A DNA stretch of 47,416 nucleotides from Clostridiales bacterium (lineage in GTDB: Bacteria > Bacillota > Clostridia > Lachnospirales > Lachnospiraceae): assembly GCA_012837605.1 (NCBI GenBank), contig DUQV01000043.1, positions 1 through 47,416 on the forward strand. Reading direction: 5' to 3'. Below are positions 36,739 through 39,033 of this stretch, piece after piece. The notes beneath the pieces were generated by a model, which was not told where the DNA came from, searched no databases, and was given only the letters and a program-made list of their open reading frames with translations. Numbering within the stretch: the stretch's first letter is position 1; the number at the start of each line of letters is the position of its first letter. Made by a program: the position numbers and the translations under genes.

Positions 36739-38511
36739 CTAGTCATCAATCCTTTTGATGTCAGTTATGTCAGTGTTAACTACCATCGAATAGTTGGTAT
36801 TATAAATAACGAATCCGGGGGCTTTACCGCTTGGTTTTTTAATGTTTTTCCGCGTTGTATAGTCTATCTCAACCTTGTCAGCATTTTTTGCCCCACTATA
36901 GTATGCGGCCAGCTTTGCAGCCTCCTCAAAGGTTCTGTCCGGCGGCTCATTTTCACCGTCTGATTTAACAATAACATGAGAACCGGGAAGGTTCTTGGCA
37001 TGAAACCACCAGTCATTACCATTGGCCAGCTTAAAGGTAAGCTCTTCATTCTGATAGTTGTTTTTCCCTACATACATGTGATAACCGTCAGAAGAGATAT
37101 AGTGAAGGGGCTTGCCTTTTATATTTTTTCCTGTACGGTCCTTTGGTGTTGGTTTCTTAACTGCAGATTTCTTTTTGATATACCCGAATTCCATTAGCTC
37201 ACGCTTTAATTCGTTCAAATCATGCTCATCAGCAGCCATATCCAAGGAAATCTTAATGGATTCCAGATGCCTGATTTCATCCTCGGTTTCTTTAATCAAG
37301 TTTGATAAAGCCTCATATGTCCGTTTCAGCTTATTGTATTTTTCAAAATACCGTTTTGCATTTTCCATCGGCGTTAAAGTGGAGTCAAGAGGTATCCGGA
37401 TTTCCTCATTATTATTGTAATAATTTTGTGCAATCAGTTCTTTTGTACCCGGTTCCAATCCGTAGCCATATGCGGTGATAAGCTCTCCATATATCTTATA
37501 TTTATCTCTTTTCTCCGTATCTTTAAGCTGCTTCAGCTGCAAATCGTATTTTTTTGCAGTACGTTCAACAGCATTTGCAACCAGCTTACGAAGATCGGCG
37601 GATTTTTGACGTATTCGGGATGCGGCATTCTTCTGCGCATAATAGGTCTCAAGCATAGAAGATGCCGAAGAAAGCGGCTTTATATCATATCCTGAATAAC
37701 AGGTAAGTACAATACTCGAGAATTCGATTGGTCCCCGTTCTCCAATAATAATATTAGGAAAAAAATCTTTGTTCTTAACGAGTTCTAATATTCTTTCAAA
37801 ATTACGATACAGATGAAGCCCCAAATCTTCGTTAAGTGAAGAGGTTGATACATCTGAATCAATCGATGCTCTAAAGCAGATTTCATTTGCCAGAAGCGGG
37901 CTGATACCGGTTAGACCTGTGTATATTGCTTTCCCAATCGGCATTGCCTTGTTCAGAATATTTTCTTTAAAGGAATCATAGTCAGCAGTAAGAGGGTCAA
38001 GCTTTTTTGCTGTTTTGGGAATGAAGTATTCTCTTCCCGGCAGAACCTCACGAACTGAACTCATGAATTGGTTAACCCGCTTTATACTGTCAATAATAGT
38101 CCTAGAATCATCACAGAAGATAATATTACTGTGCTTTCCCATAAGCTCAATGATGATATATTTTGATTTTAGATCGCCAAGCTCATCCATATGTTCAATC
38201 TTTATGGATACAATCCTTTCCAGACCGGGCTGTGTAATGTTAAGAATTTTACCGTTTATAAGATGCTTACGAAGAAGCATACAAAAATTTGGAGCGGTTA
38301 TAGGGCTGGGCTTTGTATTTTCTGTCAGGTATATTAACGGCAATCCGGCACCTGCACTTAGGAATAATTTATATGCCTTTTTATCCTGTCCCTTTATGGT
38401 TAACAACAGCTCATCCTTCTCCGGTTGAGCAATCTTGTTTATTCTTCCTCCAAGCAGAGTACTATTTAATTCATGAACAATATTTGCAATTACAACTCCG
38501 TCCAGTGCCAT
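36739..38511 (-). CDS. rqcH: NFACT family protein (RqcH/Rqc2/FbpA-like)
   Basis: MALDGVVIANIVHELNSTLLGGRINKIAQPEKDELLLTI; C-terminal GNDWWFHAKNLPGSHVIVK. ATG at 38511 with GGAGG SD; the ORF-track extension to 38640 reads through the repeat element. Confidence 0.93.
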   Translation of the reverse strand: MALDGVVIANIVHELNSTLLGGRINKIAQPEKDELLLTIKGQDKKAYKLFLSAGAGLPLIYLTENTKPSPITAPNFCMLLRKHLINGKILNITQPGLERIVSIKIEHMDELGDLKSKYIIIELMGKHSNIIFCDDSRTIIDSIKRVNQFMSSVREVLPGREYFIPKTAKKLDPLTADYDSFKENILNKAMPIGKAIYTGLTGISPLLANEICFRASIDSDVSTSSLNEDLGLHLYRNFERILELVKNKDFFPNIIIGERGPIEFSSIVLTCYSGYDIKPLSSASSMLETYYAQKNAASRIRQKSADLRKLVANAVERTAKKYDLQLKQLKDTEKRDKYKIYGELITAYGYGLEPGTKELIAQNYYNNNEEIRIPLDSTLTPMENAKRYFEKYNKLKRTYEALSNLIKETEDEIRHLESIKISLDMAADEHDLNELKRELMEFGYIKKKSAVKKPTPKDRTGKNIKGKPLHYISSDGYHMYVGKNNYQNEELTFKLANGNDWWFHAKNLPGSHVIVKSDGENEPPDRTFEEAAKLAAYYSGAKNADKVEIDYTTRKNIKKPSGKAPGFVIYNTNYSMVVNTDITDIKRIDD

Positions 38512-38538
38512 AACAACCTCCAATGTAAGTCTTCCATG

Positions 38539-38826
38539 ACCTAATCTGCAGATAAGCAGATTAGGATAAGGTTCAGCTTTGCTGAACCTAATCACGTCTA
38601 CACTTATCCAAGCCAATCTGTTCATTTTACTATGACACATAAATGTGTCATATAAAATGCTCCGATTGCCTTGAACTAATTCTAGAGATAAGCAGATTAG
38701 GAGCTCAAAAACCTGCGGTTTTTTCGCTCACGTTACACTTATCCAAGCCAATCTGTTCATTTTACTATGACACATAAATGTGTCATATAAAATGACCAGA
38801 TTACCTTGGCCTAATCTGCTTATCGT
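38539..38826. repeat. Composite fold-back element: two tandem ~135-bp units with inverted ends and a 61-bp exact direct repeat
   Basis: 61-bp identical copies at 38599-38659 and 38734-38794; CCTAATCTGC at 38540-38549 and 38810-38819; GCAGATTAGG at 38556-38565 and 38692-38701; 37-nt hairpin CATTTTACTATGACACATAAATGTGTCATATAAAATG in each unit. Confidence 0.93.
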
Positions 38827-38867
38827 GGATATTATATCATAAATAGTTGGGTATATGAATCATGATA

Positions 38868-38938
38868 TATAAAACACGAAAAAAATATAAAACATGAAAA
38901 AACTATAAAACATAAATAAGCTATAAAACATGAAAAAA
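38868..38938. repeat. Four-copy ~18-bp A-rich tandem repeat
   Basis: TATAAAACACGAAAAAA / TATAAAACATGAAAAAAC / TATAAAACATAAATAAGC / TATAAAACATGAAAAAAC. Confidence 0.85.
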
Positions 38939-39033
38939 CTACCACATGCATTTCATGATGATATGTTGTATAATACTTTTGTAACATATTTAACATATTT
39001 GTAACAATTGAAACTGTAATTTGGGAGGCTAGT

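Follow-up and report, generated by a model that had tools for sequence, protein, structure and literature searches.

The window, a 47,416-nucleotide stretch from a Clostridiales bacterium of the Lachnospiraceae (GenBank assembly GCA_012837605.1, contig DUQV01000043.1; genome G000), carries rqcH on the minus strand (36739–38511), a gene with homologues in 32 of 34 genomes of the genus. Upstream of rqcH lies a 288-bp array (38539–38826) that was originally predicted to be a composite fold-back element of two tandem units. The 61-bp segment claimed to be repeated is identical at 38599–38659 and 38734–38794, and the repeat extends beyond this core to 82 nt at 93% identity with a spacing of 135. 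The proposed unit start, AGATAAGCAGATTAGG, occurs exactly at 38550 and 38686, but the sequence at 38810–38825 that was taken for its perfect inverse has one mismatch. Both of the differing hairpins assigned to a variable slot are found in the array, and the distance to the rqcH SD, put at 15–30 nt, is about 18 nt, given a start codon at 38511 (minus strand) and an SD near 38517–38521. None of 200 shuffles folds as well as the array on either strand (z = −15.3 for the plus strand and −14.5 for the minus strand). The functional sense of the array follows that of rqcH and is therefore the minus strand, which corrects the earlier description; the unit boundary is likewise moved, to CACG plus P1 at 38827–38824, directly 3′ of the TATAAT at 38836–38831.

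Read in the rqcH sense, each unit of this non-coding element (approximately 120–160 nt) is a three-way junction composed of P1 (GATAAGCAGATTAG/CTAATCTGCTTATC), a long hairpin (P2), a junction segment (ATAAGTGCAACGTGA), a small hairpin (P3) and the closing strand P1′. All features of the array lie on the minus strand. An extended −10 promoter element, TGATATAAT (38831–38839), is situated just outside the element and is followed by the tetramer CACG (38824–38827), whose G (38824) is the first base of P1 and, from the usual −10 spacing, the inferred +1. Unit A (38687–38824) is a complete copy that matches the covariance model R1 with 138 bits and, folded alone, has a z of −11.2; it consists of the P1 5′ strand GATAAGCAGATTAGG (38810–38824), P2 (approximately 38745–38809), the conserved junction GGATAAGTGTAACGTGA (38728–38744), in which CGTG (38729–38732) pairs with CACG, P3 in its standard form GAGCGAAAAAACC..GGTTTTTGAGCTC (38701–38727), and the P1′ 3′ strand CTAATCTGCTTATC (38687–38700). 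Unit B (38551–38686; R1 match of 67–72 bits at 38551–38690) is the second tandem copy; its 5′ end is degenerate, its own −10 is absent, and the P3 slot is occupied by an exchanged hairpin, AGGTTCAGC..GCTGAACCT (38569–38591), a module that recurs in other copies. Between the element and a divergent SH3/NlpC-P60-type gene, the window also contains an AT-rich 18-bp tandem repeat of about four units (TATAAAACATGAAAAAAC, 38868–38939).

Dispersal, fold and flank pairing

The array matches 11 places in its own genome by BLAST, and R1, which was built from 24 copies, finds 13 (a lower bound). R1 detects the element in 25 of the 34 genomes of the genus, with 0 to 58 matches per genome (again lower bounds), and copies were found in a collection scan in Mobilisporobacter senegalensis, Mobilitalea sibirica, Herbinix sp., and Lachnospiraceae and Clostridiales MAGs. 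The predicted dispersed family is thus present in many copies in host and relatives alike, and the outcome that would have refuted it, a core confined to this locus with no empty sites among relatives, was not met. Elsewhere in the Lachnospiraceae, lone weak R1 matches (L128–L136) share this architecture but differ in P1 sequence; a broader second model (R2), which adds such family-level copies, detects members in 81 of the 396 Lachnospiraceae genomes (77 of 333 genera) and, on a class sample, in three further families of Clostridia. Comparison with Rfam 15 at E ≤ 1 gave only matches far below the gathering score for the window stretch and none for nine family-level loci. No account of this family in Lachnospiraceae was found in the literature, which was limited to open-licence papers, so that a prior description is not excluded. 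A phage origin was rejected on the absence of any match to the exact core pattern in a viral contig collection.

Support for the fold comes from two alignments. Among 24 copies from the genus, compensatory change is found in 31 of 43 base pairs, and P1, which forms terminal inverted repeats of 14–15 bp, is nearly invariant together with the junction. Across the family, 92.5% of cells pair in an alignment of 19 copies, with both sides changed in 257 cells; none of 500 shuffles reaches the observed pairing, all slid controls collapse, and P1 itself covaries (7 of 9 pairs). Because the 19-copy alignment had been made to fit the R1 structure, its result leans towards that structure. A conserved structured core with covarying stems in leaders, as a riboswitch or other regulatory leader would have, is present. 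Six copies (L330, L339, L340, L343, L344, and L132) form a subfamily in which a GGGCGAAGCCC-type mini-hairpin is found within the junction and P1 mostly starts AATGAGC, and at L129 and L136 a complete copy is followed by arrays of repeated 3′ halves (junction, P3, P1′).

The hairpin slot does behave as the exchangeable module that had been inferred from the array, since the swapped hairpin is one of a set that recurs across copies. The hairpin GGTTCAGC..GCTGAACC occurs in 7 of 137 copies and at several further loci; it substitutes for P3 in unit B and L037, and is added before P3 in L003, L007, L192, L225, L237, L353–L355, and L363.

The tetramer immediately 5′ of P1 pairs and covaries with the junction (CACG/CGTG in 57 copies, CGCG/CGCG in 9, CATG/CATG in 3). 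Perfect Watson–Crick pairing between flank and junction is seen in 69 of 105 copies; 5000 shuffles averaged 44.5 and never exceeded 57. These shuffles leave shared ancestry in place, so the exact significance is uncertain. Inspection by eye adds the pairs CGTG/CACG and TTCG/CGAA in distant genomes, and shows that in the mini-hairpin subfamily the tetramer lies five bases further out with pairing kept. At promoter-type copies, a transcript starting at the G of CACG would leave most of the tetramer outside the RNA, and the pairing may therefore act in DNA rather than RNA.

Pairing between a flanking tetranucleotide (in the present element only a putative cleavage site) and an internal guide is a property shared with IS608 of the IS200/IS605 family, which recognises its tetranucleotide by base pairing (PMC5934647). 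The element could accordingly be imagined as belonging to the single-strand elements of IS200/IS605 or REP kind: a Y1 transposase would move it, the left tetramer would serve as cleavage or target site and the junction as guide, and its hairpin ends and the lack of a general target duplication (see below) would suit such a scheme. This is nevertheless very improbable: Y1_Tnp (PF01797) shows no correlation with copy number and is absent from G000, G030 (96% complete, 11 copies) and others, and a RAYT/Y1 transposase was rejected as the mover for that reason. To our knowledge, moreover, REP and IS605 hairpins are not three-way junctions, and the architecture of the present element differs from theirs. 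The original reading of a non-autonomous REP/MITE-like element is supported as regards mobility, given dispersed copies, element-free sites in most relatives and a derived insertion at a SpoU-type gene (see below), but its REP component is not.

Position beside genes

In 74 of 122 copies the upstream flank reads TATGnTATAAT-R-T-N followed by the tetramer at fixed spacing, with a weak TTG at the −35 position; by the usual spacing, +1 in these copies is inferred, without transcript data, to be the G that opens P1. At rqcH, P1 begins at the predicted transcription start directly after TATAAT, in agreement with the original placement of the element in the promoter or 5′ leader of that gene. Some copies without a −10 instead follow a gene whose stop codon is the TAA of GATAAG, and several in distant genomes come, as read by eye, after a hairpin and a T-run (L327, L328, L334, L335, and L342).

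The terminator-like sites upstream of these five copies resemble the site preference of group IIC introns, which insert after terminators and pair with their 5′ flank; unlike those introns, the present element has neither ribozyme domains nor a maturase, and RVT_1 is missing in several copy-rich genomes.

Copies are strongly oriented with respect to their neighbours: 103 copies share the strand of the first long ORF downstream and 14 are opposed to it (n = 117, p = 6e-18), and none of the 137 copies lies within a long ORF. The downstream genes, which were named from translations by eye and not by profile search, are varied housekeeping genes (rqcH, obgE, mutS2, gyrB, asnS, secA, greA, alaS, and others), among which no shared pathway or theme was found; nor was an expression platform seen near the SD. 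A metabolite riboswitch was rejected because the downstream genes have no common theme.

Copies beside homologous genes form 28 clusters, mostly across different species. In 21 orthologous pairs that were compared, P2 is altered, often wholly, yet still paired (the counts are approximate, as the alignment of base-pair ranks allowed no gaps). This turnover of P2 with pairing kept at orthologous loci indicates selection on the fold in place, although copies may instead have inserted more than once at a favoured site.

Insertion, retention and rival explanations

Three of 30 rqcH loci carry the element, with two units in G000, one in G032 and a degenerate copy in G009, and the other 27 have no full copy. 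At the gene for a SpoU-type methyltransferase, most species have an ordinary C-terminus (YVFTNQ-like) and no element, and in one clade the protein ends YEFTR* with the TAA provided by the element; in G000 and G019 apparently only a remnant of the element is left. The dnaN locus has the element only in G005, G014, and G032. Since it is absent at most orthologues of these three loci, the element is, as judged from sequence comparison, a derived insertion at each of them. rqcH loci without the element sometimes hold a few bases like its 5′ end (e.g., L149 and L157), and part of the presence/absence pattern there may therefore be loss. In one clade the last codons of dnaN (L261, L266, and L268, in G014, G009, and G000) read AATATTCAYG....GCAGATTAG and look like the element's 5′ end even where the remainder is missing; either a lost copy has left a scar in the coding sequence, or the target was element-like beforehand.

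Target-site duplication is not supported as a general property: 3 cases were found versus 0.6 expected at a match score of at least 11, a weak excess, and direct repeats near copies are limited to 17 bp at L105 and a few cases of 9–11 bp. At L105, L348, and L349 the extended −10 (TATGRTATAAT) is repeated just past the 3′ end (17 bp in L105), possibly as a target-site duplication of young insertions.

These distributions bear on whether the element is instead a fixed cis-regulatory RNA, a riboswitch-like or protein-bound leader placed on many housekeeping genes by vertical descent and ordinary duplication with no mobility mechanism. A range of 0 to 58 copies within one genus, the 27 rqcH loci without a full copy, and a SpoU C-terminus replaced by insertion are difficult to reconcile with it, as are the themeless downstream genes and the lack of a visible expression platform; the covarying fold with its conserved unpaired junction, the sense orientation, the +1 position, retention at orthologous loci and tandem copies are what such an RNA would show, and it remains a possible but unlikely explanation.

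Being short, non-coding and multicopy with terminal inverted repeats, the element has the form of a MITE, and to that extent this part of the original classification is supported. A passive MITE with an incidental RNA fold, mobilised when a DD(E/D)-type transposase acting in trans recognises the P1 inverted repeats, would explain why these repeats are nearly invariant in the genus and why the many copies are strictly intergenic. Less probable still than a fixed regulatory RNA, it leaves unexplained the compensatory changes in P2 and P3, covariation of P1 between genera, the conserved internal junction and the orientation bias, and it is not helped by the weak evidence for target duplication; flank pairing, start-site position and orthologous retention likewise make the element more than passive. 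No autonomous parent or larger element with the same ends was seen at 25 examined 5′-end sites (not an exhaustive set), which held only full, variant, contig-cut, and truncated copies.

A SINE-like retro-element, its transcript copied by a reverse transcriptase, would fit a transcript beginning at P1, the occasional direct repeats of 11–17 bp (as at L105), and the existence of solo 5′ ends. It is scarcely credible, because no RVT_1 gene is present in G000, G014, G001, G009, G013, G020, or G030, which hold 11 to 58 copies each (lower bounds), and reverse transcriptase was rejected as the mover because it, too, does not follow copy number.

A proposed mobile element as structured leader

The best reading is that of an apparently undescribed element family of Clostridia in which the conserved unit is one strand folded into a three-way junction, together with the pairing between flanking tetramer and junction. 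We favour, with a probability of roughly 0.6, a non-autonomous element, matching no Rfam family, that inserts into genomes and acts as a structured leader at mRNA 5′ ends or as an intercistronic RNA; transcript data are lacking, and the mover and the effect on expression are unknown. Under this reading, an unidentified enzyme that reads P1 and the junction would move the element, and the junction may help to choose or hold a CRCG-bearing, AT-rich target. After insertion the element would be transcribed in the sense direction, either at the very start of an mRNA or between two cistrons; to judge from this position, the structured 5′ end would most likely shield or insulate the message against RNase J and similar enzymes, and such shielding could account for the retention of many copies. 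At rqcH, two tandem copies would extend the leader of a transcript beginning at P1. Orthologous-site retention could in part reflect repeated insertion at a preferred target. A bolder and rather doubtful proposal is that the family represents a new mobile class: a structured single strand, moved by an unknown enzyme, that would choose where to land by base-pairing of its junction tetramer with a CRCG-type tetramer next to DNA that transcription has opened (a −10, terminator, or gene end) and would then become a 5′ structure of host mRNA.

Several repeat families are precedents for an influence on neighbouring transcripts (PMC3049150; PMC3446304; PMC2649163). BOX of Streptococcus pneumoniae is a composite, modular, dispersed repeat with a predicted RNA fold that can be transcribed and affects expression of its neighbours; where it overlaps gene 3′ ends, it encodes the stop codon in 36 reported cases (PMC3049150). 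The present element is likewise modular, dispersed, and RNA-folding, and can supply the stop codon of the upstream gene, but differs in its covarying three-way junction with flank pairing, fixed −10 position, and occurrence in many genera of Clostridia (behaviour and architecture were compared, not sequences). The bcr1–bcr18 repeats of the Bacillus cereus group are found in 5′ and 3′ UTRs and in operon gaps, about half are transcribed, and some are MITE-like and others predicted functional RNAs, in separate families (PMC3446304 and works cited there), whereas the present family joins both properties in one element (sequences were not compared). Correia Repeat Enclosed Elements of Neisseria are short inverted-repeat elements beside genes, able to give rise to promoters and to interact with RNase III (PMC2649163); their promoters arise at the element ends, whereas the present element has its −10 just beyond its end and folds as a three-way junction. 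Insertion, modularity, and transcription are thus already known together in BOX and bcr; the covarying junction, flank pairing, and promoter-adjacent site distinguish the present element.

Small dispersed repeats are usually classed as either selfish MITEs or regulatory RNAs, and this family combines features of the two in one defined structure, recurs in many genera of Clostridia, including Lachnospiraceae, and puts a structured RNA precisely where transcription of housekeeping genes is predicted to begin. How elements without a transposase pick promoter-adjacent sites, and whether bacteria gain ready-made mRNA 5′ structures by insertion, can now be tested. In one record assigned to an Anaerolineaceae MAG (MAG4; SHOH01000044, L110), the stretch with the element has a match identical to that of a contig from the genus member G014 (L038/L211), and the record is therefore probably a mis-binned contig.
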